Positions 1 through 26,661 of a stretch of 64,000 nt of DNA are shown piece after piece (the stretch's first letter is position 1; each line of letters opens with the position of its first letter). Source of the DNA: Streptomyces globisporus (GTDB lineage Bacteria; Actinomycetota; Actinomycetes; Streptomycetales; Streptomycetaceae); contig BMTG01000011.1 in NCBI GenBank assembly GCA_014649555.1, forward strand, positions 1-64,000, written 5' to 3'. The translations under genes were made by a program, and so were the position numbers. The notes under the pieces were generated by a model. The model made no database searches and was not told the DNA's origin. It worked only from the letters and a program-made list of their open reading frames with translations.

Positions 1-792
1 CACCGCACGAATCGCATCCCCATCACGCACCGCATCCGACAACCGCTTCAACACCACGAGTCCGACGCCACTGCCACCGACGGTGCCATGCGCCTCCGCG
101 TCGAACGCACGGCAGTGACCATCGGGAGAGAAGATGTTCCCTTCCTGGTACTGGTAGCCGCCGTGCTGAAGGACGTTGATCGTCGCCCCACCGGCGAGCG
201 CCACGTCGCATTCGAACTCGAGGAGGCTCTTGCACGCCTGATGGACCGAGACCAGCGAGGTGGAGCACGCCGTGCCGATCGTCATGCTCGGCCCGGTCAG
301 ATTGAGGCGATGAGAGATCTGGGTGGCCGCGAAATCCTTGTCGTTGAAGAGCGAGATCTGGCGGGCGAACGATGTCATCAGGTCGGTGCGCGGCAGCAGA
401 TGGTGGAGGAAATATCCGCTGCGCCCGATCCCGAGAAAGACACCGGTCGTGCTTTTACTGCTCGTCGGGTCGCAGCCTGCGTCCTCCAGTGCCTCGACAG
501 CCACTTCGAGGAGGAACCGTTGCTGCGGATCCATGATCTCCGCCTCGCGCGGCGTGTATCCGAAGTATGCCGCGTCGAACTTTTCGATCCCGTCGAGAAT
601 TCCCGCCGCGCGCACGAGGTCCGGATTCGACAGAACCGCGGGGTCACCGTGAGCGGCGATGACGTCGTCGTCGCTGAGGAGGGAGATCGACTCCTTACCC
701 TGAATGAGACTCTGCCAGAATTCCTCGGTGTTCGCGGCTCCGGGAGCGCGCAGACCCATTCCGATAACGGCAATGCTTCGATCGTCACTCAC
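1..792 (-). CDS. Type I polyketide synthase, ketosynthase N-terminus (partial)
   Basis: This is the 5' end of a modular PKS gene that continues beyond base 1; 264 codons are open to the edge. The protein opens with the usual start of a KS domain (IAVIGMGLRAPGA) and contains the DPQQR segment and the nucleophile motif GTACSTSL, with Cys at about residue 176, then SPDGHCRAFDA. The start is GTG at 792-790. It overlaps the TGA of the preceding NRPS gene in a 4-base GTGA, so translation is probably coupled. The KS would extend the peptidyl chain delivered by the C-A-T module just upstream, which makes this the second PKS entry point in the assembly line. AT and later domains lie outside the window, so extender choice cannot be judged. 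Confidence 0.93.
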   Translation of the reverse strand, partial: MSDDRSIAVIGMGLRAPGAANTEEFWQSLIQGKESISLLSDDDVIAAHGDPAVLSNPDLVRAAGILDGIEKFDAAYFGYTPREAEIMDPQQRFLLEVAVEALEDAGCDPTSSKSTTGVFLGIGRSGYFLHHLLPRTDLMTSFARQISLFNDKDFAATQISHRLNLTGPSMTIGTACSTSLVSVHQACKSLLEFECDVALAGGATINVLQHGGYQYQEGNIFSPDGHCRAFDAEAHGTVGGSGVGLVVLKRLSDAVRDGDAIRAV

Positions 793-3700
793 CGCTTACC
801 CCCATTCCGTGCACCCATGGCCGCCCGGCGCCTTTCAAGACGACTCTGGACACCCGCGAAAGTCTGCTCGCTCTCCGTCCCGGATATGTGACGGGCCAGG
901 GAGGCGATCGTTGGATATTTATACAGATCGATCATGTTCAGCTTTTTCGGGTAAGCGGCCTTCAATTGGCCGAAGACCCGGGCGAGAAGAATCGAATTCC
1001 CTCCGATGTCGAAGAACCCGTCATCCGCTCCAGGGCGGGAGACACCGAGGACCTCCGACCAGACCTCGGCGATGGTCTTCTCGATCTCGGTCCCGGGCTC
1101 CCGGTAGGCGCGCTGCGCCTGCTCGGGTTCGGGAGAGGGCAACGCGGCCCAGTCCGTCTTTCCGTTGGGCGTGAGAGGGACGGCCGCCAGCTCGACGAAC
1201 GCGGCGGGGGTCATGTACTCGGGGAGCGTCGCCCGGACCGCGGCCACGGCGTCTCCTCGGTCGAAGCCGTGGCCCTCTTCCATGACGACGTACGCCACGA
1301 GGCGCCTGGTGCCCAGCTGGTCCTGACGCACGACGGTCACGGCATCACGGACACCCGCGAGCTTCCGGAGCACCGCCTCGATCTCGCCCAGCTCGATCCG
1401 GAAGCCGCGCAGCTTGATCTGCCGGTCGTTCCGGCCGAGATACTCCAGCTCTCCGTGCGGGAGCCAACGGGCCAGGTCCCCGGTGCGGAAGAGGCGCGCT
1501 CCGGGCCGGCTCCCGAAGGGATCGGGGACGTAACGCTCGGCGGTCAGCGACGGCCGGCGATGGTACCCCTGGGAGACGCCGTCGCCTCCGAGGTAGAGCT
1601 CTCCGGCGATGCCGGTCGGCACGGGCCGCATCGCCGAGTCGAGGACATAGGACTGCGAGTTCGCGATGGGGCGCCCGATCAGCGGCTTGGCGCCGTCCTC
1701 GGGAACGAGGGTGAACGTCGAGTACACCGTGTCCTCGGAGGGCCCGTACAGGTTGTACACCTTCCGCACGCCGTCTCGAGCGTGGAGCCGGTCGACGAGA
1801 TCGCGCGGCAGCGGCTCGCCCGCGAGGTTGACGACGCGTACGCCTTCCGGCAGTCCGCCAAGGCGCAGAAGCGTGTCCATCGCGGAGGGCACCGTGTTCA
1901 CCAGCGTCACACGGTCACGCGCCGGCAGGGACGGAAGCAGGAGCGCGTTGTCCGCGAGGACGACGGTGGCTCCGGTGGTGAGCGGCAGGAAGAGCTCGAA
2001 GACGGAGAGGTCGAAGCAGATCGACGTCGAGGCGAGCGTCCCTTCGAGCTCGTCGGCGGAGAAGACCCCTTTCGCCCACATCAGGAGCGACACCACGTTG
2101 CGATGCGTGATCCGTACGCCCTTCGGCCTGCCGGTCGAACCCGATGTGTAGATCACGAGAGCGACCGACCGCTCGTGCGCGGCAGCACCGCCGGCCAGGG
2201 CGTCGGATCCGGCCGCCTCGTCCGGCCCCGCCTCCTCGTCCACCGTCAGCAGCCGGGCCGACGAACAGGACAGCGCCTCGCGCGTCGACGCCTGCGCCAG
2301 CACCACCACGGGGGACGCGTCGCTGAGGATCTGGTCGATGCGCGACGGCGGGTAGGCCGGATCGAGCGGCACATACGCCGCGCCCGCCTTCAGCACGGCA
2401 AGCAGCGCGGCGGGCAGGTCGGGACCGCGCTCGAGACACACGCCCACGAACGCCCCGGAGGTGACGCCCGCGGTCCGTAGGCGTCGCGCGAGCCGGTTCG
2501 CGTGTGCGTCGAGCTCTGCGTAGGTGAGCCGTTCCTCACCGGCGATGAGCGCCGTCGCCTCGGGCGTCGCCGCCGCCTGCGCCTCGAACAGCTCGTGCAC
2601 GGGGCGCTGTTCGTGCTGCCCGGTCTGCGTCCGGTTCCAGTCGACCAGCAGGCGTCGGCGCTCCTCCCCGGCCATGACCGGCAGCTCGCCCAGCGTGCGC
2701 GGCGCGGCGACCAGTTCGGCGAGGAGCACCTGGTAGTGCTCCAGCATCCGTTCGACGGCGGCCGCCTCGAACCTGTCCTCGTCGAAGGCGATCTTGAGGG
2801 TCATCTCCTCGCCCGGCGCGACCGTCAAGGTGAGCGGGAAGCTCGTCTGCTCCGACGTCCGGACCGACTCGACCCGAATCCCTCCGCCGGGGGCGTCGAG
2901 TGCCTTCCCCATCGGGAAGTTCTCGAACACCACCAGCGAGTCGAACAACGGCACATCGCCCTGCACACCGGCCCAGCGCCGGATCTCGGCGAGCGGAGCG
3001 TAGCCGTACTCCTCACGTTCGACCTGGGCCGCCTGGAGACCGCGAAGCCAGTCGGCCACCGGCGCCCCGTCGTCGACGCGGACGCGCACGGGCAGCGTGT
3101 TGAGGAAGCACCCGACCATCGACTCCACACCGTTGATCGACGGAGGGCGGCCCGAGGCGACCATCCCGAACAGGACGTCGTGTTCGTCTCCGTAGCGGCC
3201 GAGCAGCAGTGCCCAGGCACCCTGTGCCAGCGTGCTCAGCGTGATCCGCTCACGCCGGGCTCCGTCCTGGAGGGCCGCCGTGGCCTCGCGCGAGAGCGTC
3301 ACACCGCGCCTGGCGATACGGCCGGGGCCGGGGTGGCCGGCCGACGGCCGGTCCACGCCCAAGGGAGTCGGCCCGTGCACTCCGGCGAGCGACCGGCGCC
3401 AGTACTTCTCCGCCTCGGCGAGATCCTGCCCGCGCAGCCACTCTATGTACTCGCGGTACTGCACGGCCGGAGCGAGCGCTGCCGTCCCGCCGCTCACCCG
3501 GGCCCGGTAGTGCCGCATGACCTCCGTCACCACGGTCGGCATCGACCAGCCGTCGGAGATCGCGTGGTGGCGGGTCCAGAGGAACCGGTGCCGGTCCTCC
3601 GAGAGACGCACCAGGAGGCAGCGCATCAACGGTGCGCGGGAGAAGTCGAAATCCTGCCCGCGGTCCTCCTCCATACGGGCGTCGAACCGCGCCCGCTGCT

Positions 3701-3998
3701 CATCGGCGGGCAGGGACGTCCAGTCCTCCTCGCACCACGGAAGGTCGGCCCGTCGGCGTACGACCTGCAGCGGACGGCTCTGGTCGATCCGCATGAACAG
3801 GGTCCGGTGGACGGCGTGCCGTGCCGTCACCTCGTCCCAGGCCGCGCGGAACGCGTCCACGTCGAGGGGCCCGCAGACATCGAACGACAGCTGCACGACG
3901 TAGACGCCGCTGTTCGGAGCGAGCTGTGACGTGAGCAGCATCGCGTGCTGGAGCGGCGACAGCGGGTAGATGGCCTCGATGTCGTTCGTCTTGTTCAT
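789..3998 (-). CDS. NRPS single module C-A-T, alanine-like A domain
   Basis: A 1069-residue module. The C domain starts at residue 8 (IYPLSPLQHAML) and has an intact HHAISDG near residue 147. The A domain has YTSGSTGRPKG near 620, FDLSVFEL near 660 and NLYGPSED near 760. The carrier motif GGNSILLAR has its Ser at about 1002. By eye alignment to PheA the pocket reads D-L-F-N-N-A-L-V-Y. That is one change from the DLFNNALTYK code known for alanine, so Ala is the best guess. The short N-terminus follows an acidic tail on the E domain of the preceding protein, as expected for a communication-domain pair. The C-terminus is basic (SRLERRRAAMGARNGGKR) and probably docks to the downstream KS. The gene sits 15 bases after the preceding NRPS gene. 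Confidence 0.93.
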   Translation of the reverse strand: MNKTNDIEAIYPLSPLQHAMLLTSQLAPNSGVYVVQLSFDVCGPLDVDAFRAAWDEVTARHAVHRTLFMRIDQSRPLQVVRRRADLPWCEEDWTSLPADEQRARFDARMEEDRGQDFDFSRAPLMRCLLVRLSEDRHRFLWTRHHAISDGWSMPTVVTEVMRHYRARVSGGTAALAPAVQYREYIEWLRGQDLAEAEKYWRRSLAGVHGPTPLGVDRPSAGHPGPGRIARRGVTLSREATAALQDGARRERITLSTLAQGAWALLLGRYGDEHDVLFGMVASGRPPSINGVESMVGCFLNTLPVRVRVDDGAPVADWLRGLQAAQVEREEYGYAPLAEIRRWAGVQGDVPLFDSLVVFENFPMGKALDAPGGGIRVESVRTSEQTSFPLTLTVAPGEEMTLKIAFDEDRFEAAAVERMLEHYQVLLAELVAAPRTLGELPVMAGEERRRLLVDWNRTQTGQHEQRPVHELFEAQAAATPEATALIAGEERLTYAELDAHANRLARRLRTAGVTSGAFVGVCLERGPDLPAALLAVLKAGAAYVPLDPAYPPSRIDQILSDASPVVVLAQASTREALSCSSARLLTVDEEAGPDEAAGSDALAGGAAAHERSVALVIYTSGSTGRPKGVRITHRNVVSLLMWAKGVFSADELEGTLASTSICFDLSVFELFLPLTTGATVVLADNALLLPSLPARDRVTLVNTVPSAMDTLLRLGGLPEGVRVVNLAGEPLPRDLVDRLHARDGVRKVYNLYGPSEDTVYSTFTLVPEDGAKPLIGRPIANSQSYVLDSAMRPVPTGIAGELYLGGDGVSQGYHRRPSLTAERYVPDPFGSRPGARLFRTGDLARWLPHGELEYLGRNDRQIKLRGFRIELGEIEAVLRKLAGVRDAVTVVRQDQLGTRRLVAYVVMEEGHGFDRGDAVAAVRATLPEYMTPAAFVELAAVPLTPNGKTDWAALPSPEPEQAQRAYREPGTEIEKTIAEVWSEVLGVSRPGADDGFFDIGGNSILLARVFGQLKAAYPKKLNMIDLYKYPTIASLARHISGTESEQTFAGVQSRLERRRAAMGARNGGKR

Positions 3999-4013: not shown

Positions 4014-7000
4014 CTAGCTCTCAAGTTCCTCGAGAAGGTCGTCGAGCTCCTCCTGGGTCAGGTCGATGTCCGGGAACGCGGACGGGTCGACCTTCAGCCG
4101 GCCCGTACGGCAGTCCTCGACGACCTGCCGGACCGAGGCGGTGAACCGGGCGGCGAGGGCCTCGACGGTCTCCGCTTCGTGCACGGCCTCGCTGAAGGTG
4201 AAGCCGACGCGGAGGCGCCCGTCGGCCACGATTCCGTTGACGCTCAGCAGGTGCTTGCGCCGCTGCGCCGCACCGTGCGAGGCGCCGACGGAGTCCGTGG
4301 ACAGCTCGAACATCGAGTCCGGCAACCGCGAGGCGTCGGCCTGTCCCAGGTAGTTGAAGACGATCTCCGCCTGGCTCCCGCGGGCCAGCCGTTCGCGAAC
4401 GGACCGGTCAGGGGCCAGATGACGCAGCAGGCCGAATCCGACACCGCGCCTCGGGACGCTTCGCACCTGCTCCTTCACGGCCCGCAGCCCGTCGGCCCCG
4501 GCCGACGGGTCGACGCGCAGCGGATACATCGCCGTGAACCAGCCGATGGTGCGCGAGATGTCCACGTCGTCGAAGAGCTCCTGGCGGCCGTGCCCCTCCA
4601 CATCGACGAGGAGTGGTCGAGAGCCGGTCCACGGCGCGCACGCCTCGGCCAGCGCGTGGAGCAGCACGTCGTGCGCGTCGGTCTTGTGCGCGGCGTGCAT
4701 ATCGCGTACGAGCGTGGTCGTCTCGTCGGCCGAGAGTTCCACGGTGACCGTCCGCGCCGTCGCCTCGGTGTTCGCCCCGTCCCGGTCGCGCGGCAGCGGC
4801 GCCGTCGGCGATTCGATCTGGCGCGCCCAGTAAGCGAGTTCGGCCTGGGTCTCGTCGTCGGCCGCGTGTGCCTGGAGCCTCGCGACCCACTCCTTGTACG
4901 AGGTGGTCTTCGGCGGGAGCCGCACGGGGCGCCCGTCGCGCAGCGCCTCGTAGCACGCCTGGAGGTCTTCCATGAGGACGCGCCACGAGATTCCGTCGAC
5001 GACCGTGTGGTGGATGACGGTGTAGACCTGGGCCGGACGCCTTCCGCCGTAGTCGATGTAGACCATGCGCAGCAGTGGCCCGTTCCGCAGGTCCAGGGCG
5101 CCCTGGGTCCGTGCCTGCATGGCGGCGACAGCCCCGGCCCAGGACGATTGCTGTTCATCCGTCAGGTCGAGGCGTTCGACCGGCTCGCTCTTCTCCTCCG
5201 GTGCGCTCGTCCATTGGCGGACGCCCGCCGCGTCGCGGACGAAGCGGTTCCGGAGGGCGTCATGGTGCCGTACGACGGCGTCGCGTGCCCTCGCCAGCAG
5301 GTCGAGGTCGAGCCCTCCCGCGGTGACGTCGACCAGGACGGCCTGGTTGTAGTGATGCGCGTCGGCGAGCTCCTGCTCGAAGAACCAGCGCTGGATGGGG
5401 GCCAGCTCCGCGTCGCCCAGGACCAGGCCCTGCTCCGCTCGCGGTCCGGCGCCCTCCTTGGCCGCCGTGGCGAGTTCGGCGAGCGTCTGGTACCGGAACA
5501 GGTCGCGGGCGGAGAGGACGATCCCCGCGTTCTTCGCGCGCGAGACCATCTGGATCGCGATGATCGAGTCGCCGCCGAGCTCGAAGAAGTTGTCGTCCGC
5601 GGCGACGTTCGGCTGTCCCAGGAGCTCGCTCCAGATCTGTGCCAGCCGTTCCTCGACCCGCGTCCGCGGCGCGAGGAACGAGTCGGCCGGCCGCTGTTCG
5701 GGGAGCGGGTCCGGCAGGGCCTTGCGGTCCACCTTTCCGCTGGGCAGCAGTGGCAGCGCGGGCAGTTCGACGAACAGGGCGGGGATCATGTACCGCGGCA
5801 GCCGCTCCTCCAGGTGCCCGCGCGCCTGGGCGACGTCGAATCCGTCCGTCGCGACGACATGGGCGACGAGCCGCTTGCCGCCGCGCCCGTCGTCGTCCGC
5901 CACGACCACCGACGCCTGTACACCCGGCGCGTCGGCGAGGGCCGACTCCACCTCGCCGAGTTCCACCCGGAAGCCGTTCACCTTGACCTGGTGATCGCGG
6001 CGTCCGACGAACTCCAGTTCACCGCCTGGCCGGTAGCGCACGATGTCACCCGTGCGGTACATCCTGGCCTCGGCGTCCGCCGCGAAGGGGTCGGGGACGA
6101 ACCGCTCGTCCGTGAGTTCGGGCCGGTGCAGATAGCCGCGCGCGACGCCGTCGCCGCCGATGCACAGTTCTCCGGGTACGCCGGCCGGGACCGGGTTGAG
6201 CCGTCCGTCGAGGACGTAGACCCGGGTGTTGGACAGCGGACGACCGATGGAGTTGTCGGCGCCGGTGACCGTATGGCTGGTGGACCAGATGGTCGCCTCG
6301 GTCGGGCCGTAGACGTTGAGCACCTGGCCGCCGACGGTCGCGGACAGCGTACCGGCCAGCGTGGGCGTCAGCGCCTCGCCGCCGACGAGCATCCAGTCCA
6401 GCTCGCGCAGGGACCGTCGTGCGTCGTCGTTGGCGACCAGCAGCGCGGCGAGCGACGGAGTGCACTGCAGGTGCGTCACCCCGTGGAGCTCGATGAGCCC
6501 GGCGATGTCCTCGCGCGGCGCCTCCCCGGGGGCCGGCGAAACGGTCCGGCGCAAGGTGTCGAGATGCTCGAAGCTCGCCAGCACCTCCTCCGTGCCGACG
6601 CCGAAGTCGATGAGACAGGCGATTTCGTCCACCCCGGTCTCGCGCAGCCGGTCGACGAACGGCACACACTGCTCCGGAGTGCCGAAGAGCCCGCTGTCGC
6701 CGTAATAGCGGTCGAACGCGTGGTCAAGGAGCGCGTCGAGGTCCTTCTCGTCGAAGTCCTCGATCTCCAGCCCACGCGAGCGGGCGATGGGACGCACGAG
6801 ATCGACGGAGTCGCGCAGGTAGTTCTTGAACGGCTCACGCACGGTCCGTCGGACGAACTCCTCGTCGTCCGACACGAACGTGTGGAGCATCAACGTGACA
6901 TGCCCTTCGCCGGCGTGTCCCGCCTCCCTCCGGGCGGTGCGGTACACCTCTAGCGAACGTGCCAGGTCCTCCACCGACTGCCCGAGCAGGTGAGTCAGCA

Positions 7001-10000
7001 GGTTGGCGCCGACGGCGCCGGCGCGACGGAACGTCTCCGGGTTGCCCGCCGCCGTGATCCAGACGGGCAGCTCCGGCTGCACGGGGCGGGGCAGCGTCCG
7101 CACCTCGATGTCCTCGCCGGTTCCCGAGACCGTCCGCACCGCCTCGCCGCGCCAGAGTTTCCGCACGACGTCGAGGTCGCGGAACATGATCTCCTTGCGG
7201 TCGGCGAAGTTCTCCGGCGCGAGGGCGAAGTCGTGGGGCTGCCAGCCCGAGGCGATCGAAAGCCCCACGCGCCCGTCGGACAGGTTGTCGATCATCGCCC
7301 AGTCCTCGGCGACCCGGATCGGGTTCTGGAGCGGGAGCACCAGGCTTCCGGTGCGGATTCCGATCCGCTTCGTGGAAGCGGCGACGGCGGCGGCGGTGAT
7401 GCCCGGGTTCGGATAGAGCCCGCCGAACGTTCCGAAGTGCCGCTCCGGTGTCCACACCGCCGCGAAACCATGCTCGTCGGCCCAGCGCGCACCGTCGAGC
7501 AGCATGCGGTACTTGTCCGTCCCGCGCTCCCCGGCGTCGCTCGCGAAGTAGAACAGGCTGAAGTCGACGGGCCTGTCGGAGCCGGGTTTCCGGGCATCGC
7601 TCAGCACCAGCTCCTCGCCGACGAGCACGACCTTGAAACCGCGCGTCAGGGCCCACAGCAGTTCGAGGACCGAGATGTCGAAGGTGTAGTGCGTCAGCGC
7701 GAGCCAGGTGCCCGGCGCGGAGCCGCCGAGGCGCTGGTCCATGGCGGCGAAGAACCCCGCCAGATTCCGCTGTGCGACCATCACGCCCTTGGGGCGGCCG
7801 GTGGACCCCGACGTGTAGATCACGTAGGCCAGGTGGTCGGGGCGGAGGGTCCGGGTCGGGGAGGATCCGTCCGCGGCGGCGTCCGTCTCCGGGTCGATGA
7901 GCTCGACGCCTTCCGGCAACTCCGCCGAGCGGGCCGCCGATGCGACCACGAACCGCAGCCCGGTGTCCTCGATCATGTACGCGATCCGGCCGGCGGGAGC
8001 GCCGGGGTCCATCGGAACGTACGCGCCGCCCGCCTTGAGCACGGCGAGCATGGCGACGACCATCTCGACCGACCGCTCGGTCCACAGGCCGACGATGACG
8101 TCCTCGGCGACGCCCCTGGACCGCAGGGTCCGCGCCAGTCGGTCCGCCTCCCGGTCGAGTTCGCCATAGGTGAGCGAGCGGTCGCCGAACACCAGTGCCG
8201 TGGCCTCGGGGGCGGCCTTCGCACGCGCCTCGAAGGCGTCGGCGACGAACGGCTCGTCGGTCCGAGCGACGTAGTCCCGGTTCCAGTCGGCAAGAACGAG
8301 CTCCCGCTCCGGCTCACCGAGGAAGGTGAACTCGCCTATTCGGGTGGCCGGTTCGCGGACGGCGGCCCGGATCAGCCCCGTGAAGTGGTCGGCCAGTCGC
8401 TCGATCGTCGGGGCGTCGAAGAGATCCGTGCGGTACTCGACGCGCCCCGTCAGCCCCTCGTCGTTCTCGACCAGGTCGACGGTGAGGTCGTACTTCGCGA
8501 CGCTTCCCGGCAGAGCCAGCGGCTCGATCCCGAGACCGTCCATGCCGCGCCCGTCGCCGGGCGCGGTCTGGTAGACGAAGAGAGCCTGGAAGAGCGGCGT
8601 GTGCCCGGGGTCCCGCGGCGGATTCAGCGCCTCGACGAGGCGTTCGAACGGGAGATCCTGATGCGTCTGGGCGGCGAGCGTCACCTCGCGCACCCGCCCC
8701 AGCAGGTCCTCGAAGGACGGGTCCCCGGACAGATCGGTCCGGATCACCAGCGTATTGAAGAAGCACCCGATCAGGGCCTCTGCCTCGGCACGCGTACGGT
8801 TCGCTATGGGCGTGCCGACCGCGATGTCCTCCTGGCTCGTGTAGCGCGACAGCAGGACGTTGAACGCGGTGAGCAGCGCCATGAACATCGTGGACTGCCG
8901 TTCCCCGGCCAGCGCGCGCAGCGCGTCCGTGGTGGCCCGGTCGAGGGTGATCGGGACGGTCGCGCCCCCGGTCCCCTGGACGGCGGGCCGGGGCCGGTCG
9001 GTGGGGAGGTCCAGCAGGGCCGGCAGTCCGCGCAGCTGCTCCGTCCAGTACTCCAGCTGCGGACGGATCCGGTCGGATTCCAGCCGCTGGTTCTGCCAGG
9101 CGGCGAAGTCGGCGTACTGGATCGCCAGCGGCGCGAGCGGAGAGGGCTGGTCCGCCCGGAACGCCGTGTACAGCGTCACGACCTCCTGCCAGAGCACAGC
9201 GGTCGACCAGCCGTCGGAGACGATGTGATGCAGGCACAGGAGCAGTACGTGCTCCTCGGGCGTGACGCGCAGGATCTCGGCCCGGAACAGCTCGTCGCGC
9301 TCCAGGTCGAAGGTCCGCGCCGCGAAGGCCCGCTCCCTGGACGGCACGTCCGGAGCGGCGACGTCCACCACCGGCACGTCGACGGCCGACGCCTCGCGGA
9401 CGATCTGTGCGGGAACGCCGTCCACCGTCACGAAGTTCGTGCGGAGCGCCTCGTGGCGGCGTACCACCTCACTCAGCGCGCCTACCAGGCAGGCGGTGTC
9501 CAGGGGGCCGCTGATGCGGAGGGCCGCGGGGATGTTGTAGGCGGCGCTCGCGCCGTCGACCTGGGAGAGCACCCAGATGCGGCGCTGCGCGTAGGACAGG
9601 GGCAGCGGTCCGGTGCGCTCGATCGGCGTGATCGCGTCATCCGCGTCCGCCTTGCCCGCCGCGCGCTCGGCGTCGATCACTTCGGCCAGCTGCGCGACCG
9701 TGGAGGACTCGAACAAGGTGGCGACCTGAAGCGCGACCTGGGTGGCTGCCCGCACGCGGGCGACGACGCGGGTGGCCCCCAGCGAGTTGCCGCCGAGCGT
9801 GTGGAAGAAGTCGTCGTGCACGCCGACCTTCTCGCAGCCGAGGATGTCCGCCCAGACCCCCGCGAGCAGGGTCTCCGTCTCCGTACGCGGCGCTACGTGG
9901 CTCGCCGCTCTGGACGCGTCGGGGTCCGGCGCCGGCAGCGCCCGCCGGTCCACCTTCCCGTTCGGGGTCAGCGGCAGAACCGGCAGCACGACGACTGCGG

Positions 10001-12752
10001 CCGGCACCATGTGGTCGGGCAGCTCAGCCCGCAGCTGCTCCGTCAGTTCGGCGGTCGGCAGGTGGGCGCCTCGGCGGGCCACGACATACGCCGCGAGACT
10101 CGAGTCGGCGCCGTCGGAACGTACGACGACCGCGGCATCGCTCACGCGCTCGCCGCGCAGGAGCACCGCCTCGATCTCGCGCAGCTCCACCCGGTGCCCA
10201 CGGATCTTCACCTGCTGATCGGCGCGGCCCAGGAACACGACGGCGCCGTCCGGGCGCTGCCGGACCAGGTCGCCCGTGTGGTACATGACCGCACCGGGCT
10301 CGTCCGTGAAGGGGTCGGGGAGGAAGCGGTCAGCCGTGGCGCCGGGCTGCCCCTCATAGCCGCGGGCGACGCCGGGGCCCCCGATGTACAGCTCTCCGGG
10401 GGAGCCTTCCAGCACGGGGCGCAGCTTCTCGTCCAGGACGTAGGAGCGATAGTTCGGGAGCGGGCGCCCGATGGGCACCTGGTCCGGGGTCCCGTCCGCC
10501 ACCGTGAGCGTGAGAGCGCCGACGGCCGTCTCGGTCGGCCCGTAATGATTGACGACGCGCAATCCTGGAAGCAGCTTCCGCACCCGCTCCACCAGGGACG
10601 CCGGAAGCTCCTCTCCGCCGAACACCAGGCAGGCGCTGGGCAGCAGCTCGGCGGCGTTCTCGGCGTCGAGAAGCGCGGCGAGGTGCGAGGGGACGATCTT
10701 CAGCATGTCGACGGGCTGCTCGCGGAAGCGGCGGACCAGCGCGTCGGCCGCCAGGACCTCGTCCGGCGCGGCGAGGAACAGCGACCGGCCGGTGCACAGG
10801 GCGCCGAACACCGCGGTGTGGCCGAGGTCGGCCGCGGTGGTCGCCAGCGTGCCCAGTACGGCGTCCTCGGGCAGGGCGAGCTCCGGTACGACGCCTTCGA
10901 CGTAGGCGCCTATGGCGCGGTGCGGTACGCCGACCGCCTTGGGGCGTCCCGTCGATCCCGAGGTGAAGATGAGGTAGGCGAGGTGGTCCGGATGGACGTC
11001 CACCGCGGGCGGCGTGTCCGGCAGCCGATCCGGCTCCGCGGCACCGTCGAGGTCGAGCACCGGAATCCCGTGTGCCGTTGCGGGGCCGGTCAGGCCGCCC
11101 TCGGTGAGGAGCGCCGCCGGGCGGGCGTCCTCGATCATCCGGGTGAGCCGGGCGGCCGGCAGGGACGGATCGAGGGGGACGAACGCGCCGCCTGCCTTGA
11201 GGACGGCGAGCAGGCCGATGACGTACTCGACGGAACGCTCGGTCATCAGCCCGACGGGCACGTCCGGCCCGACCCCCCGCGAACGCAGGGCGTGCGCGAG
11301 CCGGTTCGCCCGGCGCTCGGCCTCGCCGTACGTCAGGCGGCGGCCTCCGCACACGGCGGCGAGCGCGTCGGGCCGTGCCGCGGCCCAGTGCTCGAAACGC
11401 GCGTGCACGAGCTGGGGCGCCGAGTGCGGGCGCCGCTCACCGGTGCCCCGCGCGAGAACGCGCGCGGTCTCCTCCTCGTCCGCCAGCCCGATGTCGCCGA
11501 CCGGGGCCTCGGGGTCGGCGACGACGGCGCGGACGACGGAGGCGAGCTGACCGGCGGTCCGTTCCGCGTGCCGAGCCGACATCCGCCGCACGTCGTGTAC
11601 GACGCTCAGGGTGAGCTCGCCCTGTGCTCCCTGGACCACGTCGAGGTGCAGGAGCGATCCGGCCGGTGGGACGGCGAGGCCCTCCATGGCCAGGCGCCGT
11701 CCGTCGGCGCGCGCCTCGGCCGGCAGCTCGGTGCGGGCGAAGCTGAAGGGCGCCGACTCCGTCGTCCGCGTCCCGTCGAAGGAGAACTGGTCCACGGCGG
11801 CGTCCGCCCACGCCTCGTCGAGGTCCTTGGCGAGGGCCGCGAACGCCCGGGCCGGCTCCATCGCGGTGAGCAGGGGGACCGGACTCTCGAAGTTCCCGAC
11901 CACGTCCTGGAGTTCGTCCAGACCACGAGATGTGGGGAGGAGGGCGGTCACCATCCGCTCCTCGCCGGTGAGCCGCCACAGCAGCACCTGCCAGGCTCCG
12001 AGGAGAACCGCCGTGGCCGAACAGCGGATTCGGGTCGCCACGTGTTCCACCGCCGCGGCCGCCGGGCCGTCGACGGGTACGCGCACCGCTGCGGAACCGA
12101 CTCCGGCTCCGGGCTCGAAAGGCGTGGGCAGCCCAGCGGCGGCGGCGAACTCCCGCCCGAGCCATCCGTCCATCCGGGCCCGCGCCTCGTCGCTGCCGGT
12201 CTGCTCGTGCAACCACTCCGCCGCGTCCAGGTACTGCAGCGACACCTCCTCCTGGGTGCGCCCCGCGAGTGCGGCGGTGAAGTCCTCGAAGATCACGGCG
12301 AGCGACCGACGGTCGACGAACACCCCGGAGGCCGTCAGCACAAGGACGGCCCGGTCGGAGCCCGCCATGAGGCGGGCACGCACCGCGCCGCCGTCCGGGC
12401 CGCTGCCCGAGGGCGCGCGAACGTCGGCGTCGGCCGCCCGGTCGACCGCCTCGGCCGCGGCGAGGACGTCGTCCGGGAGAACGTCGTCGATCCACTCCGG
12501 CTCACCGCCGTCGTCCACCAGCTGCAGCGGCGTCGCCAGACCGGGTACCGGAACCAGCCTTGAACGCAAGGACTCATGACGCTCAATCACCGACCGGACG
12601 GCGCGCAGGACCTCGGAGCGGCGCGTCGGCCCCTCCATCGTGATGCGGCACTGCGCCCGGAGCCCGGGGGAGTGCGACCACGCGTGGAGCTGCGGCGGCG
12701 AAAGCCGGAAGCCGGCCATCGGGGAACTGTCAAAATCCGCGGCGTCGTTCAT
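4014..12752 (-). CDS. NRPS, two modules: interface/C*-A(Asp)-T-C-A(Gly; inserted LLM)-T-E
   Basis: A 2912-residue synthetase. Residues about 10-430 are C-domain-like, but the HHxxxDG position reads TASGVFVDRRS (near 145), so both His are lost and the domain cannot condense. A1 (about 445-940) has pocket D-L-T-K-V-G-H-V-G, the aspartate code. Carrier Ser is about 990. The second C domain has HHIVSDG near 1175. A2 has YTSGSTG near 1646 and FDISVLELL near 1691. It is then interrupted by a luciferase-like, FMN/F420-type monooxygenase (about 1725-2050, RPVDFSLFYFA to IACLIDFGV) and resumes with NVYGPTEATIW near 2147. The A2 pocket D-I-L-Q-L-G-V-I-W is the glycine code. The second carrier (LGGDSI, Ser about 2396) and an E domain (HHTVVDG near 2581) follow. 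The acidic tail ends DLTQEELDDLLEELES. An E domain after glycine makes sense only if the alpha carbon is modified first. Confidence 0.93.
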   Translation of the reverse strand: MNDAADFDSSPMAGFRLSPPQLHAWSHSPGLRAQCRITMEGPTRRSEVLRAVRSVIERHESLRSRLVPVPGLATPLQLVDDGGEPEWIDDVLPDDVLAAAEAVDRAADADVRAPSGSGPDGGAVRARLMAGSDRAVLVLTASGVFVDRRSLAVIFEDFTAALAGRTQEEVSLQYLDAAEWLHEQTGSDEARARMDGWLGREFAAAAGLPTPFEPGAGVGSAAVRVPVDGPAAAAVEHVATRIRCSATAVLLGAWQVLLWRLTGEERMVTALLPTSRGLDELQDVVGNFESPVPLLTAMEPARAFAALAKDLDEAWADAAVDQFSFDGTRTTESAPFSFARTELPAEARADGRRLAMEGLAVPPAGSLLHLDVVQGAQGELTLSVVHDVRRMSARHAERTAGQLASVVRAVVADPEAPVGDIGLADEEETARVLARGTGERRPHSAPQLVHARFEHWAAARPDALAAVCGGRRLTYGEAERRANRLAHALRSRGVGPDVPVGLMTERSVEYVIGLLAVLKAGGAFVPLDPSLPAARLTRMIEDARPAALLTEGGLTGPATAHGIPVLDLDGAAEPDRLPDTPPAVDVHPDHLAYLIFTSGSTGRPKAVGVPHRAIGAYVEGVVPELALPEDAVLGTLATTAADLGHTAVFGALCTGRSLFLAAPDEVLAADALVRRFREQPVDMLKIVPSHLAALLDAENAAELLPSACLVFGGEELPASLVERVRKLLPGLRVVNHYGPTETAVGALTLTVADGTPDQVPIGRPLPNYRSYVLDEKLRPVLEGSPGELYIGGPGVARGYEGQPGATADRFLPDPFTDEPGAVMYHTGDLVRQRPDGAVVFLGRADQQVKIRGHRVELREIEAVLLRGERVSDAAVVVRSDGADSSLAAYVVARRGAHLPTAELTEQLRAELPDHMVPAAVVVLPVLPLTPNGKVDRRALPAPDPDASRAASHVAPRTETETLLAGVWADILGCEKVGVHDDFFHTLGGNSLGATRVVARVRAATQVALQVATLFESSTVAQLAEVIDAERAAGKADADDAITPIERTGPLPLSYAQRRIWVLSQVDGASAAYNIPAALRISGPLDTACLVGALSEVVRRHEALRTNFVTVDGVPAQIVREASAVDVPVVDVAAPDVPSRERAFAARTFDLERDELFRAEILRVTPEEHVLLLCLHHIVSDGWSTAVLWQEVVTLYTAFRADQPSPLAPLAIQYADFAAWQNQRLESDRIRPQLEYWTEQLRGLPALLDLPTDRPRPAVQGTGGATVPITLDRATTDALRALAGERQSTMFMALLTAFNVLLSRYTSQEDIAVGTPIANRTRAEAEALIGCFFNTLVIRTDLSGDPSFEDLLGRVREVTLAAQTHQDLPFERLVEALNPPRDPGHTPLFQALFVYQTAPGDGRGMDGLGIEPLALPGSVAKYDLTVDLVENDEGLTGRVEYRTDLFDAPTIERLADHFTGLIRAAVREPATRIGEFTFLGEPERELVLADWNRDYVARTDEPFVADAFEARAKAAPEATALVFGDRSLTYGELDREADRLARTLRSRGVAEDVIVGLWTERSVEMVVAMLAVLKAGGAYVPMDPGAPAGRIAYMIEDTGLRFVVASAARSAELPEGVELIDPETDAAADGSSPTRTLRPDHLAYVIYTSGSTGRPKGVMVAQRNLAGFFAAMDQRLGGSAPGTWLALTHYTFDISVLELLWALTRGFKVVLVGEELVLSDARKPGSDRPVDFSLFYFASDAGERGTDKYRMLLDGARWADEHGFAAVWTPERHFGTFGGLYPNPGITAAAVAASTKRIGIRTGSLVLPLQNPIRVAEDWAMIDNLSDGRVGLSIASGWQPHDFALAPENFADRKEIMFRDLDVVRKLWRGEAVRTVSGTGEDIEVRTLPRPVQPELPVWITAAGNPETFRRAGAVGANLLTHLLGQSVEDLARSLEVYRTARREAGHAGEGHVTLMLHTFVSDDEEFVRRTVREPFKNYLRDSVDLVRPIARSRGLEIEDFDEKDLDALLDHAFDRYYGDSGLFGTPEQCVPFVDRLRETGVDEIACLIDFGVGTEEVLASFEHLDTLRRTVSPAPGEAPREDIAGLIELHGVTHLQCTPSLAALLVANDDARRSLRELDWMLVGGEALTPTLAGTLSATVGGQVLNVYGPTEATIWSTSHTVTGADNSIGRPLSNTRVYVLDGRLNPVPAGVPGELCIGGDGVARGYLHRPELTDERFVPDPFAADAEARMYRTGDIVRYRPGGELEFVGRRDHQVKVNGFRVELGEVESALADAPGVQASVVVADDDGRGGKRLVAHVVATDGFDVAQARGHLEERLPRYMIPALFVELPALPLLPSGKVDRKALPDPLPEQRPADSFLAPRTRVEERLAQIWSELLGQPNVAADDNFFELGGDSIIAIQMVSRAKNAGIVLSARDLFRYQTLAELATAAKEGAGPRAEQGLVLGDAELAPIQRWFFEQELADAHHYNQAVLVDVTAGGLDLDLLARARDAVVRHHDALRNRFVRDAAGVRQWTSAPEEKSEPVERLDLTDEQQSSWAGAVAAMQARTQGALDLRNGPLLRMVYIDYGGRRPAQVYTVIHHTVVDGISWRVLMEDLQACYEALRDGRPVRLPPKTTSYKEWVARLQAHAADDETQAELAYWARQIESPTAPLPRDRDGANTEATARTVTVELSADETTTLVRDMHAAHKTDAHDVLLHALAEACAPWTGSRPLLVDVEGHGRQELFDDVDISRTIGWFTAMYPLRVDPSAGADGLRAVKEQVRSVPRRGVGFGLLRHLAPDRSVRERLARGSQAEIVFNYLGQADASRLPDSMFELSTDSVGASHGAAQRRKHLLSVNGIVADGRLRVGFTFSEAVHEAETVEALAARFTASVRQVVEDCRTGRLKVDPSAFPDIDLTQEELDDLLEELES

Positions 12753-12797: not shown

Positions 12798-20824
<8,027 letters not shown>

Positions 20825-20828
<4 letters not shown>

Positions 20829-23800
20829 GAGCTGTGCCTCCTGCGCTGCCGCTGACGGAAGGCGGCCTTCTGCTTGCTCGCCCGGTTCTCGACGTCCACG
20901 CTCAGCTTCTCGTCGGCGTTCTCACCGCCCGTGCTGATGTGCGCCGCGAGCCCGGCGATGGTCGGAAAGGTGAACAGGTCGACCAATTCGACGCGACCCA
21001 GTCCCGCTGTGGTGATGTGCGCGTGCATCCTTGCGGCGAGCAGCGAATGGCCGCCGATCTCGAAGAAGTTCTCGTGGACGCCCACCCCGTCGCGTTCGAG
21101 GAGTGCCTGCCAGATCTGCTGGAGGGCGTGCTCGATCCGGTTGCGTGGCGCCAGGTATGTGGCGGTCCCGCCGCCCTTGACCTCGTCCGCCATCCTGACG
21201 AGCGCGCCGCGGTCGACCTTTCCGTTGAGTGTGAGCGGCAGGCTCTCCACCGGGACGATGCGCGACGGCACCATGTAGTCGGGCAGTCGGACGCGGGCGT
21301 GGGCGCGGACGCTCGCCTCGTCGTAGGCCATGCCCTCGCGCGGCACGGCGAACGCGACGAGACCAGTGTCGCCGTTCCGGTCCGGCCGGGCGACGACGGT
21401 GCAGTTCGCGAGCGCCGGGTGCCCGCCGAGTACGGTCTCGATCTCACCGAACTCGATACGGAAACCGCGCACCTTCACCTGGTGGTCGGCGCGGCCGAGG
21501 AACTCGAACCTGCCGCCGCCCAGCGGTCGCACGACGTCCCCGGTGGCGTACATCCGGCCTCCGGGCCGGTCGGTCAGCGGATCGGGGAGAAACTTCTCCG
21601 CGGTCAGCGCGGGCCTGTTCCAGTACCCGCGTCCCACACCGTCCCCACCGATGTACAGCTCGCCGGGGACTCCGATCGGTACCGGCCGAAGCCGCGCGTC
21701 GAGGACGTACAGCGTGGTGTTGGCCAGGGCTCCGCCGACCGTCGCGCGGTCGTACCGGTCGGGTTCGAGCCGTTGCACCGCCGACCAGACGCACGTCTCC
21801 GTAGGCCCGTACATGTTGAGGACGTCGCCAATACCGGAGTCGCGCAGCCGCGAGGTGAGTTCCGGCGGAGAGGCGTCCCCGCCGACGAGGAGGGTGCGCA
21901 GACTGCTCTCCGCCGAGGGATGGCCGTCCCGGTCGAGGAGCAGAAGGCGGGCGAAGGCCGGCGTGCACTGCAGGTGCGTGACGCCGTGCCGCGTGATCAC
22001 GTCCGTCGGCGTCCGGGCGGGCCGGGCCTGGGTGTCCTTCATCGCCTGCCTGACGGCGGCGATGTTCCCCAGCGCGTCGAGGACCAGGTCGTCGGGGACG
22101 CCGAAGTCGATGAGGCAGGCGATCTCGTCCACTCCGGCCCCGGCCAGGGCACGGACCAGGTCGGCACAGGACTCCGGGGTTCCGAACAGCGCGCTGGTAC
22201 TGGAGTACCGCTCGAAGGCGTGATCGACGATCACTTCGCGGTCGCGTACCGGGTCCAGCCCCAGGCTCCTGGCCAGTCCCTGCATCAGGTCGATCGAGCT
22301 GCGCAGGTACGCCTTGAACGGCTCGCGCACGACCTCGCGCACGACCTCCGCGTCCGGGTGGACGAAGGTGTGCAGCATCAGGGTCACGACTCCTTCGTCG
22401 TGCCCGGCGCCCGCCCTCGCGGCGCGGTAGATGCCGATCTTGCGGGCCAGCTCCTGGACGTTCTGGCCCAACAGGTGGGTGAGGAGGTTGACGCCGGTCG
22501 CGCCGGCCCTGCGGAAGGTCTCGTCGCTGCCGGCTGCGGTCGCCCACATCGGGAGTTCCGCCTGGACGGGACGCGGGAGCGTCCTCACGTCGATGTCGGA
22601 GCCGACCCCGTTGCGCCGCGAGACGGATTCCCCTGCCCAGAGCCGCCGGACGACGTCGATGTCGTCCCACAGGGACTCCTTGCGCGTGGTGTAACCGTCC
22701 GGAGCGAGCACGAAGTCGTCGGGCTGCCACCCGGAGGCGAACGACAGACCGACGCGTCCATCCGACAGGTTGTCCACCACGGCCCACTCCTCCGCGACCC
22801 GCAGCGGGTCCTGCAGGGGGAGGACGACGCTTCCGGCACGGATCTCGACCCTGTCCGTCGACGCCGCGACGGCGCCCGCGAGGACGGAAGGATTCGGGTA
22901 GGCGCCGCCGAAGGCGTGGAAGTGCCGCTCGGGGACCCAGACGGCCCGGAATCCGTTGGTGTCGGCGAAACGGGCTCCGTCCAGGAGCAGGCGGTAGAGG
23001 TCCTTCCCCTTGCTCTCCCCGGAGTCGGCGGCGAAGTAGAAGAGGCTGAAGTCGACGGGGCGCGTCGGCGCCCTGGTCTCCGGGGCGGCCGTCGCGTCGG
23101 CCGGGGAGGCCCACAGGGCGGGCTCGATGACGACCTTGTAGCCACGGCACAGGGTCCAGAAGAGTTCGAGTACGGAGATGTCGAAGGACACGCTCGTCAC
23201 TGCCAGCCATACGGGCTGCTCCGGGGCGGGGCGGTCCCGCGCGGGGTGAGGTCCGCTCCCCACCGCGCGGTCGAGGCCTGCGAACAGGTTGATGACATTG
23301 CGCCGGCTCACCATCACGCCCTTGGGGCGACCGGTCGAGCCCGATGTGTAGATGACGTAGGCGAGCGCCTCGGCGGAGCCTTCGCAGGGCGGGGCGGGTG
23401 CAAGCCTCTCCGCCTCCTCGACGAGGGCGCGGAGGGTCAGGATGTCGCCCTCGTACGTCCTGAGGGCGCGGCCTCCCTGCTCGTCGGCCACGCAGAAGTC
23501 CACCAGCGCGTCCTGCGCCATGTACGCGAGGCGATCCGGCGGGTAGGACGGGTCCAAGGGAACGTGGGCGCCACCGGCCCGCGCGATCGCGAGCATGACC
23601 ACCACCAGCGCCGCCGAGCGCTCCATGCTCACGCCGACGCGCACTTCCTCCCGTACGCCTCGCTCACGCATCGCGGCGGCCAGCTTGCCGACCCGGTCGG
23701 CGAGTTCTCGGTAGGTGAGCGACTCGTCGTCGGAGACCAGCGCCGTGGCATGCGGGGTCCGCAGCACCTGCGCGTCGAACTGTTCGAGCCAGGTCCGGCC

Positions 23801-25342
23801 GTTGACGGGGAGCCGCGGACCACGTGCCTCACGGAGCAGCGCCCGCCGCTCCGCCGTGGACATCGAGGGGAGTGAGGAGACCCGGGCGTCGGGGCGTACT
23901 GCGATCTCGCCCAGCATCGCGACAAAGCCCTGTGCGAGGCGTTCGACGGTGGCCGCCTCGAACAGGTCGACGTTGTGCGTCCATGTGCAGACGTAGTCTC
24001 CGTCCACCTGGTGCACCGAGAGCACGAGGTCGAACGGCGCGCCGCGCTGCCCCGACGAGGGCAGCACGTCCAGCGGAACCTCCTGCCCCGAAGTCCGCGC
24101 CTGCTGCCAGACGTACATCACCTGGAAGAACGGCGGACGGCTCGGGTCGCGCGGAGGGCTGAGCCGCTCGACGAGCAGGGGGAACGGATAGGGATGGTCA
24201 AGGGCGCGCAGAAGCGTCGAGCGTGTTCTGCCGAGGACCCCGGTGAACTCCGGGTCGCCGCGCAGGTCGCTCCGTACGACGACGGGGTCGGTGAAGAACC
24301 CCACCAGGTCCTGGGAACCCGGCTCCTGGCGCCCGGCTGCCGGGGTGCCCACGGCCACATCGTCCGAGCCGCTGTACTTCTGCAACAGCACCTGGAACGC
24401 GGACAGGAAGAGCATGTTCGGCGTCGCGTCGGCATCACGCGCGATCCGGGTGAGCCTCTCCGAGAGCGTGGAGTCCACCTCCACCGAGAGACGGCCGCCG
24501 CGGAAGGTCTGGGCTGGCCGGCGCGCCCGGTCGAACGGCAGATCCGTCACCGGAGGGCTGTCCCCGAGCCGCTCTCGCCAGAACGCGAGGTTCCGCTCCG
24601 CTTCCGGCCCGGCGAGCCACGCCCGCTCACGGTGCACGTGTTCCACGAACCGCGACGCGACGGGCTCCAGCGTCGGCTCGCCGCCGGTGGTGCGAGCGCG
24701 GTAGACGGCCAGCCACTCGTCGACGATGACATCGATCGACCAGAGGTCCGCCACGATGTGATGGACGACGACGACCAGAACGGGCCGTTCGTCCCCGGGT
24801 CCGGTGCGCAGCAGCAACGCCCTGATGGGCAGCTCGCGTTCGAGGTCGAAGGGGGCGTCCATGAACGCCTCCACGGCGCTCTCGACCTGCTCCTTCGGCG
24901 CGGCCTCCTCCGTGAGGAACCGCGACGGTACACCGCGGGGGCTCTGGGTCGGCTCGCCGTCCGCCCAGGTGAACACGGTACGCAGGGCCTCATGACGGCC
25001 CAGCACCTCCCGGAACGCCGCGTCGAGTTCCTCCGCGTCGACCGCGCTCCGGGCGCGGGCGGCGAAGGCGAGGTTGTAGGCGGCGCTGTCCGGCGTCAGG
25101 CGCTGGTGCAGGAGCAGGCTCTGCTGGCCGGCGGTGAGCGGGTACGGGCCGGTCGGCTCGTCCCTCCGGTGTTCCAGGAAGGCTTGGATCCCGTCCTTGT
25201 TCGCGCGCACCGCGTCGAGGACATCGGACGTCAGCGCGTCACGCGGCCCCCCGCACTGCAGGCGTCCGTCCTCAAGGAACACCCGTACGCCCTTCGCGGC
25301 GAGTGAACCGATCAGCTCGGAGATGCCGTCAGGCCTCTTCAT
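20825..25342 (-). CDS. NRPS TubC-dock-C-A(Gly-like; inserted LLM)-T
   Basis: A 1505-residue module, probably the first condensing enzyme after lipid loading. Residues 1-60 match the TubC N-terminal docking fold (ELIGSLAAKGVRVFLEDGRL, then two helices), which suggests it receives the chain from the ligase/ACP protein. The C domain motif is HHIVADLW near 192; the final Gly of HHxxxDG is replaced by Leu. The A domain has YTSGSTGRPKG near 664 and FDISVLELFW near 718. It then carries an inserted luciferase-like monooxygenase from about 760 to 1085 and resumes with NMYGPTETCVW near 1175. Its pocket D-I-L-Q-L-G-M-V-W is glycine-like. Carrier Ser is about 1433 (GGHSLLAAR). The basic tail RASKQKAAFRQRQRRRHSS may dock to the PKS. 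The upstream GGAGAGAAGGAC supports the ATG. Confidence 0.93.
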
Positions 25343-25475: not shown

Positions 25476-26621
25476 CTAAGGGGCGGCCGCCCTGGTGGCG
25501 AACTCCAGGACCCCGGCCTCCCGCCCCCAGCCGTACTCCACCCCCGCGCGGACGACGGGCTCAGCCAGCACGGCCAGGTCGTCCAGTCGGTGGTCCGGGA
25601 CGAAACGGCGCAGCCCACCGGGGGCGAGGGTGGCCAGCGCCCGCCGCACCGACGCGTCGCGCAGAGCGACGTCGGCCGGGACCGGGGCGGGGGCGCTCCT
25701 GTTGTGCTCCCCGGCCAGACAGCCGAGCAGCACGGACGAGAGCCACACCTCGCGCAGGAGTACGTCGCTGACGATGTCTCGCAGCGCCTTGGGGTCGGCC
25801 GACGCGTCGAGCCGTTCCCGCAGGGCCGCCATCACTTCGCCCGCGGGCAGCCCGCCCGCCGCGAGAACCTGGTCGGCGGGCTCGCGCCGCCATCCCCCGG
25901 GCGCCCGCGCATCCGCGAAGTACAGAAAGGCGGTGCCCTGGAGCCACCACAGATGGGACAGGGCGCCGGTCTCCGTCAGCGTGCTCTTCCGGGACGGGTC
26001 CACCGGTACATCGCACACCGCCTGACGGCGCCCCTGGCGCTCGTTGCCCACCAGGCTCGGCGCGTCGCCGTGCTCCACCGGCCCGCCGACCGGCACGTAG
26101 GCGGACACTCCGCTGCTGCGGAGGTAGCCCATCAGGGCCACGTCGTCGGTGCTTTCCGGCCCGGTCGTATCCGCCGTATCCAGGTACGCGCCGAACCCCC
26201 TGGCGACCGGGGCCGGCAGGACCAGGCCGACCGAGGGCACGTACTCCCCCACGACCTCGGCCCAGGCGTGTCCGAGCAGAGCCGCCAGACGTACCGCGTT
26301 CGCGGCAAGCCCTCCCCACTCGGCGAAAAGGCAGAGGGCGTCAGCCGGCCTCGCCCGGATCAGATCCAGCAGGGCGTCCGGGAAGTCGTCCCTCAGCACC
26401 GCGTCGTCCTGGAGGACCAGGTGGTGGGTCGCGTCGTCGGCGCAGCTCGCCCAGGCCTCGCGGGCGGCGCGCAGTGCCGTTGCCGGCGCCGAGGGGCGGG
26501 GGTCGAGCGCGATGCGCAGGCCCAGTTCCGGATGACGTTCCACAAGGTCCTGTGCCCGGCCCCTCCGGGCGGGATGGGCCATGACGGCTCCGGAGAGGCG
26601 TATGTCTCCTCGTACCAGCAT
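25476..26621 (-). CDS. DD-motif (GT-A glycosyltransferase-like) protein, copy 1
   Basis: About 381 residues, inside the biosynthetic operon. The N-terminal half reads AVMAHPARRGRAQDL, then HHLVLQDDA. This looks like a GT-A type glycosyltransferase with a metal-binding Asp-Asp pair, comparable to GT25-like proteins. It is clearly paralogous to the protein at 33,795-34,934: the spacing of MAHP, LGLR, THHLV-QDD, VRLAAL and VLPA is the same in both. The C-terminal half (about residue 190 onward) is not shared and I do not recognise it. The frame is open to 26,714, but that would overlap the ligase gene by about 50 bases. The ATG at 26,621, or a GTG 12 bases before it, fits the conserved beginning better. 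No sugar-biosynthesis genes are nearby, so the donor and acceptor are unknown and glycosyl transfer itself is an inference. Confidence 0.72.
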   Translation of the reverse strand: MLVRGDIRLSGAVMAHPARRGRAQDLVERHPELGLRIALDPRPSAPATALRAAREAWASCADDATHHLVLQDDAVLRDDFPDALLDLIRARPADALCLFAEWGGLAANAVRLAALLGHAWAEVVGEYVPSVGLVLPAPVARGFGAYLDTADTTGPESTDDVALMGYLRSSGVSAYVPVGGPVEHGDAPSLVGNERQGRRQAVCDVPVDPSRKSTLTETGALSHLWWLQGTAFLYFADARAPGGWRREPADQVLAAGGLPAGEVMAALRERLDASADPKALRDIVSDVLLREVWLSSVLLGCLAGEHNRSAPAPVPADVALRDASVRRALATLAPGGLRRFVPDHRLDDLAVLAEPVVRAGVEYGWGREAGVLEFATRAAAP

Positions 26622-26661
26622 CGCGGTCAGCACTCCATGGTGTCGAGCGTGCCCCGGCTCA

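Follow-up and report, generated by a model that had tools for sequence, protein, structure and literature searches.

Why should a module of a nonribosomal peptide synthetase (NRPS) that is coded for glycine, a residue without a stereocentre, end in an epimerization (E) domain? The question is raised by gene P0001 of Streptomyces globisporus, which lies in the stretch of 64,000 nucleotides analyzed here (contig BMTG01000011.1, positions 1 to 64,000; hereafter the window). The adenylation (A) domain of the last P0001 module is interrupted by a luciferase-like monooxygenase (LLM), and the initial annotation had proposed that the E domain is meaningful only if this oxygenase is active and produces a chiral alpha-hydroxyglycine. 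Our main conclusion, drawn from comparisons of sequences, is that the module probably makes an alpha-hydroxyglycine of set configuration within the growing chain.

P0001 is an open frame of 2912 amino acids (aa), in which profile searches call a degenerate condensation (C) domain, a first A domain (A1), a carrier (T) domain, a second C domain, the split A domain (A2), a second T domain and the E domain, in that order. The insert is one stretch of 338 aa (aa 1731-2068) and belongs to the flavin mononucleotide (FMN)-dependent LLM family TIGR04020 (MupA/Atu3671), with a score of 502.6 bits against a curated cut-off of 244.45 and coverage of profile positions 1-341 of 341. It splits A2 at columns 214/216 of the 487-column A model, that is, between motifs A4 and A5, with FDISVLEL (7659-7682) before it and HLQCTPS (6453-6473) after it. 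From similarities such as that to its closest solved relative, the PuwE oxygenase domain (PDB 6KET, E-value 1.8e-115), we infer FMN binding and monooxygenase activity. Structure prediction of A2 including the oxygenase, run on six sequences, was too poor to use (mean predicted local distance difference test score (pLDDT) 63.1, predicted template modelling score (pTM) 0.40). The specificity code of A2, assembled from both of its parts, reads DILQLGVIW, which is Gly-like by comparison with published codes; the identical code is found in the plain, oxygenase-free modules of loci L141 and L088. The E domain is full length, with HHxxxDG, EGHGR and NYLG motifs all present, and can be aligned over nearly its whole length to solved E domains (PvdL, 1.2e-100; also Tyc, GrsA and bacitracin synthetase). 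The initial annotation was thus right in describing a Gly-coded module with an inserted monooxygenase, followed by an LGGDSI-type T domain and a complete E domain with HHTVVDG, and in calling it the second of its kind in the cluster, the first being that of P0003. Its extent of 4014..8330 contains the module and runs slightly too far, since 8301-8330 still belong to the preceding C domain.

The module was placed among its relatives by a survey of three parts. TIGR04020 was searched in 394 genomes of Streptomycetaceae, with matches over the cut-off in at least 169, and 100 stretches were taken around selected matches, chiefly those in long frames; 44 stretches were taken around E-rich or other NRPS genes in genomes listed for the genus, that of the window among them; and a genome scan across bacteria and archaea supplied 80 loci, the best of at least 581 confirmed stretches. 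Domains in the fetched loci were called with profiles built from window seeds, and codes were unreadable in 50 of 555 distinct A domains, the rows of which were dropped. The survey contains 127 distinct oxygenase-split A domains, from many phyla as judged by record titles, and all 126 with a readable code are Gly-like. The one left out of the code counts is that of L229 (Myxococcus sp. RHSTA-1-4), in which the A domain is degenerate, the oxygenase is well preserved (499 bits) and no T domain is called behind. Oxygenases inside glycine A domains are widespread: in the scan of bacteria and archaea, 77 of the best 80 loci had one, again in many phyla by record titles, although this share is biased by a query that itself derives from modules of this kind. 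Insertion of the oxygenase seems to be tied to glycine. Chiral residues being the usual substrates of E domains, one might suppose that A2 loads a chiral amino acid of which the E domain merely makes the D form; with a Gly-like code shared with plain modules, and with every readable oxygenase-split A domain Gly-like, we regard this as highly improbable.

What follows the T domain differs among these 126 modules: the end of the protein or locus in 89, a C domain in 23 and an E domain in 5, while 9 are cut. Among rows with a resolved context, the most frequent arrangement places the T domain at the end of the protein and a ketosynthase (KS) first in the following gene (42 of 135 rows, counting duplicates, with 38 further rows lacking a resolved context). 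The 21 plain glycine modules divide into 17 followed by C, 4 at an end and none followed by E; the four tails, inspected by eye, show no hidden E domain (two look thioesterase-like, one beta-lactamase-like and one is short). Conversely, 5 of the 88 T-E modules with a readable code are Gly-coded, and all 5 carry the inserted oxygenase. Non-glycine modules without oxygenase have E in 83 of the 318 cases where C, E, KS or an end came after T, so that E is scarce on plain glycine (0/21; chance 0.0017), in a sample that was chosen in part for E domains. In three loci (L159, Archangium; L186, Corallococcus; L193, Myxococcus), an E domain sits on the module after the Gly-oxygenase module. By plain identity (44-45%), the E domains nearest to that of the window beyond its orthologs are those of L229, L193 and L159.

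The five Gly-oxygenase T-E modules of the survey come from four orthologous clusters of Streptomycetaceae (the window, G171, G023 and G149), which have the whole arrangement in common, and from an uncultured Shewanella. The record of G149 is that of Saccharothrix sp. ST-888; every one of 85 60-mers sampled from L169 is present in L014 or L015. A fifth ortholog, with LGGDSI, HHAVVDG, EGHGR and NYLG, was found apart from the survey in Streptomyces alkaliterrae. The arrangement in the window is not a chance event, since it recurs in G149, G171 and G023 and the module is also present in S. alkaliterrae. The Shewanella arrangement is KS-acyltransferase (AT)-..-C-A[LLM]-T-E-C-A-T, with code DILQLGMIW and motifs HHLLIDA, EGHGR and NYLGQ. 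The search for other modules of this architecture that the initial annotation had called for was extended with a profile of five sequences spanning oxygenase to E (length 1128). Full-length matches were confined to the window's own genome among 296 genomes of its phylum, to the Shewanella both among 321 genomes of its class and among 10 genomes reached via the loci, and to S. alkaliterrae among 6 further genomes; none was found in 195 genomes of the phylum of L159 (Archangium) or in 194 of the phylum of L164 (Cylindrospermum). With limits of 1e-100 (296 genomes), 1e-200 (321), 1e-280 (195) and 1e-280 (194), and only two or three candidates scored per genome, weaker cases may be missed. Several partial matches were rejected. 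A plasmid of Streptomyces cellulosae covers 89% of the LLM-to-E query, yet C comes after T; 21 matches in the L159 phylum reach only positions 928-1019 of 1128, and all ten that were read (L253-L262) are T-C; and the G533 match, which starts at 387, comes from a T-E module that lacks the oxygenase and whose code by eye is not Gly-like.

Is the E domain functional? Among the four orthologs it is 61-75% identical, and the orthologs in Streptomycetaceae retain its motifs, as does the Shewanella domain, with HHxxxDA. By the NG86 method, the ratio of nonsynonymous to synonymous substitution (dN/dS) among the four is 0.32-0.43 for E, against 0.32-0.40 for the preceding C domain, 0.47-0.61 for the degenerate C domain and 0.17-0.22 for the oxygenase. 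The preceding T domain carries the motif typical of modules with E: GGD occurs in 85/85 ordinary T-E modules and in 5/5 Gly-oxygenase T-E modules, compared with 0/23 Gly-oxygenase T-C and 4/86 Gly-oxygenase T-end modules. The C domain behind E was classified with two profiles, trained on C domains that come after E and after T, respectively, which were correct in 61/61 and 163/166 cases in five-fold tests split by locus; 180 other C domains with an unclear predecessor were left out of training, and another 20, belonging to the window cluster, its relatives and L177, were also kept out of it. The held-out C domain behind the window E scores +177 (after-E type), as opposed to -348 for the C domain of the Gly module itself, and the next C is also of the after-E type in the three orthologs (+171, +173 and +159), in Shewanella (+174) and in S. 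alkaliterrae (+166). These calls were unchanged with a stricter training set from which further kin were left out, including one row of the near-copy L169 that was part of the first set. The E domain of the Gly-oxygenase module therefore looks functional. A member of the E family might instead perform other chemistry at the alpha carbon, namely dehydration to an N-acyl imine or a lyase-like cleavage: hydroxyglycine carries a leaving group, and related C domains are described as able to dehydrate (corallorazine, PMC11342130). The standard E motifs, the ordinary similarity to epimerizing E domains and a next C domain of the type that comes after E make this a far-fetched alternative.

E domains have likely been placed on Gly-oxygenase modules twice. 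A tree built from 100 E domains requires two changes to account for those on the five Gly-oxygenase modules, and the Shewanella domain, on a long branch, clusters with two E domains from its class sample (SH-aLRT 87 and 89). In a fast tree of the oxygenases, the Shewanella member belongs to a group of 52 (support 85) from which the window group is excluded.

We propose the following route. The split A2, with its observed glycine code, would load glycine onto the T domain, and the C domain would join it to an upstream chain ending in aspartate or beta-hydroxyaspartate. The inserted FMN monooxygenase would then hydroxylate the alpha carbon of the peptidyl-Gly-S-T intermediate, with retention of the carbinolamide and no cleavage; free alpha-hydroxyglycine should decay, and hydroxylation thus probably comes after condensation. 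The E domain, which is intact, would take off and return the alpha proton of the peptidyl thioester to give both configurations. By CIP rules, L-like alpha-hydroxyglycine has the S configuration and D-like alpha-hydroxyglycine the R configuration, and the next C domain, observed to be of the after-E type, would select the D-like form, (R)-alpha-hydroxyglycine, and join it to the next residue. Retention has a precedent in solanimycin B, which keeps the alpha-hydroxyglycine from a glycine module with an oxygenase domain (PMC10204066), and which we count, by analogy, in favor of a retained carbinolamide here.

Several observations weigh against this route. E is rare on Gly-oxygenase modules (5/126), and the other 121, of which 9 are cut, show none behind T; an active oxygenase hence does not require E. 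The absence of E from plain glycine modules (0/21), a small sample, is indistinguishable from its frequency on oxygenase modules (5/117; chance 0.40), so that the argument depends on the nature of the five modules and not on a rate. A single clade of Gly-oxygenase E domains survives the approximately unbiased (AU) test (p 0.147). Moreover, the signs in T, E and C may be co-inherited and are not three independent proofs. The rarity of E and the possible co-inheritance of these signs would suit an idle E domain: in an older module for a D-amino acid, the A domain would have been exchanged for a glycine A domain carrying the oxygenase, T, E and the after-E C would have persisted as relics, and hydroxyglycine or glycine, which needs no E, would pass unselected. 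Motifs and constraint kept at this level of divergence, and the same arrangement in a distant Shewanella, speak against idleness, and we consider it unlikely. The proposal of the initial annotation is supported by comparison. That the E domain makes sense through the oxygenase agrees with Gly-coded T-E modules being found, in the sample, only with an oxygenase, with the E-type T domain, the after-E C domain and the kept motifs; hydroxylation, survival of the carbinolamide and its configuration are predictions.

The position of the insert counts against a retained hydroxyl as well. Myxothiazol and melithiazol synthetases share the a4-a5 insertion, and there cleavage is described (PMC10204066, PMC11342130): transferred to the window, the carbinolamide would collapse, the upstream chain would be released as an amide, a glyoxylyl group would be left on T and the E domain would have no role. 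Behind the window module the line continues with a C domain of the after-E type and additional modules, with no thioesterase, and we think cleavage very unlikely. On the reading in which the hydroxyl is kept, we tentatively advance a broader scheme, for which the odds are somewhat less than even: E would have been recruited at least twice, in Streptomycetaceae and in Shewanella, to act on the N,O-acetal carbon of a kept alpha-hydroxyglycine, with T and the downstream C matched to it. The product would contain (R)-alpha-hydroxyglycine behind beta-hydroxyaspartate, with a second oxidized glycine ahead of a C-methylating polyketide synthase (PKS) module, and an E domain behind a Gly-oxygenase module would be a marker of a kept carbinolamide.

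The surrounding cluster is listed in Table 1. The window is the end of its contig, and the cluster genes are co-oriented on the minus strand toward the contig end at position 1, so that they would be transcribed in the order acyl-AMP ligase with carrier, P0003, P0002, P0001, P0004 and a KS gene that is cut. In G171 no KS is called behind the C-A-T gene, and the end of the assembly line may thus differ. The A1 code we presume to be Asp-like, and that of P0004 Ala-like. The TauD domain just upstream, together with a C-like domain without HHxxxDG beside this A1, suggests beta-hydroxylation of aspartate; beta-hydroxylases fused to NRPSs are described for cyanochelin B (PMC12628792). Among the long domains of P0001, dN/dS is highest in this degenerate C-like domain. 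The ketoreductase (KR) of P0002 (about 15400-17430, beside the methyltransferase) has a weak score of 30.2 bits, and inspection by eye did not show the usual motif for nucleotide binding; the keto group of this unit may stay unreduced. Two genes, 25476-26714(-) and 33795-34934(+), are alike by eye and flank the acyl ligase and transporter genes; their products matched no Pfam family.

Table 1. Coordinates of P0001, its domains and neighboring genes in the window
Feature	Position	Strand	Remarks
NRPS P0001	4014..12752	-	degenerate C-A1-T-C-A2[LLM]-T-E
Degenerate C-like domain without HHxxxDG	11493..12665	-	possible interface domain for upstream TauD
A1	9933..11396	-	code DLTKVGHVG, presumably Asp-like
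C domain of Gly module, after-T type	8301..9605	-	difference -348 bits
A2 N-terminal part, to A4	7578..8255	-	holds D235 I236 L239
Inserted FMN luciferase-like monooxygenase	6549..7562	-	TIGR04020
A2 C-terminal part, from before A5	5703..6515	-	holds Q L G V I W
T domain	5466..5651	-	E-type motif LGGDSI (5562-5579)
E domain	4137..5435	-	HHTVVDG 4992-5012, EGHGR 4584-4598, NYLGQ 4341-4355
NRPS P0004, C-A-T	789..3998	-	code by eye DLFNNALVY
C domain directly after E, after-E type	2694..3977	-	+177 bits
Ketosynthase start	1-792	-	cut by contig end
P0002, KS-AT-methyltransferase-KR-T-C-TauD	12798..20828	-	TauD 12846-13718
P0003, TubC_N docking-C-A(Gly)[LLM]-T	20825..25342	-	no E; LLM 22052-23050; first oxygenase module
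AMP-binding enzyme with carrier domain	26662..28665	-	probable starter; fatty acyl-AMP ligase type read from domains

How does the module compare with known systems? Oxygenases in glycine A domains are known; what appears new is the coupling of one to an E domain, no report of a Gly-oxygenase-T-E module having been found in the titles and abstracts of the literature searched, which leaves most subscription journals outside. Other integrated oxygenase domains are tied to PKS or beta-amino units (puwainaphycin, PMC4219810; palmerolide, PMC8739492; a 2026 preprint, PMC13252402). PuwE, the closest solved relative, differs in this way, as its oxygenase is located between a PKS module and an NRPS module, with a proposed role in forming a 3-amino-2-hydroxy acyl chain (PMC4219810). 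In the corallorazine-like clusters, a monooxygenase (MOx) likewise lies within the glycine A domain, as reported for 38 pathways from Serratia and Pseudomonas, but these systems are bimodular and truncated linear products are proposed for them (PMC11342130); the term epimeri- is absent from the text of that paper.

MtaG and MelG, of the myxothiazol and melithiazol pathways, share the layout, with an a4-a5 oxygenase in a glycine A domain and hydroxylation of the alpha carbon, but their carbinolamide is said to break and a thioesterase to release the rest (PMC10204066, PMC11342130), whereas the window module has no thioesterase directly behind it: T-E is followed by C-A-T and KS. Module 4 of SolF, in solanimycin biosynthesis, is likewise a glycine module with an oxygenase, and alpha-hydroxyglycine is kept in solanimycin B; its insert, compared by description, is at a8-a9 instead of a4-a5, and the biosynthesis passages on this module make no mention of an E domain (PMC10204066). 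Skyllamycin-type pathways (Sky39, EpcG) also place an alpha-hydroxyglycine of defined configuration in a nonribosomal peptide, but they use a standalone hydroxylase and the residue is reported to be S (PMC9321520), so that the window module, with its built-in oxygenase and predicted R product, would give the other hand. In the known cases, as those sources describe them, hydroxylation ends either in breakage of the chain or in a retained hydroxyl, and the module itself gave no clue to the outcome. With a matched E domain and after-E C domain, both the survival of the carbinolamide and its handedness could be predicted from sequence and, if this holds, the chemistry of E domains extends to an N,O-acetal carbon.

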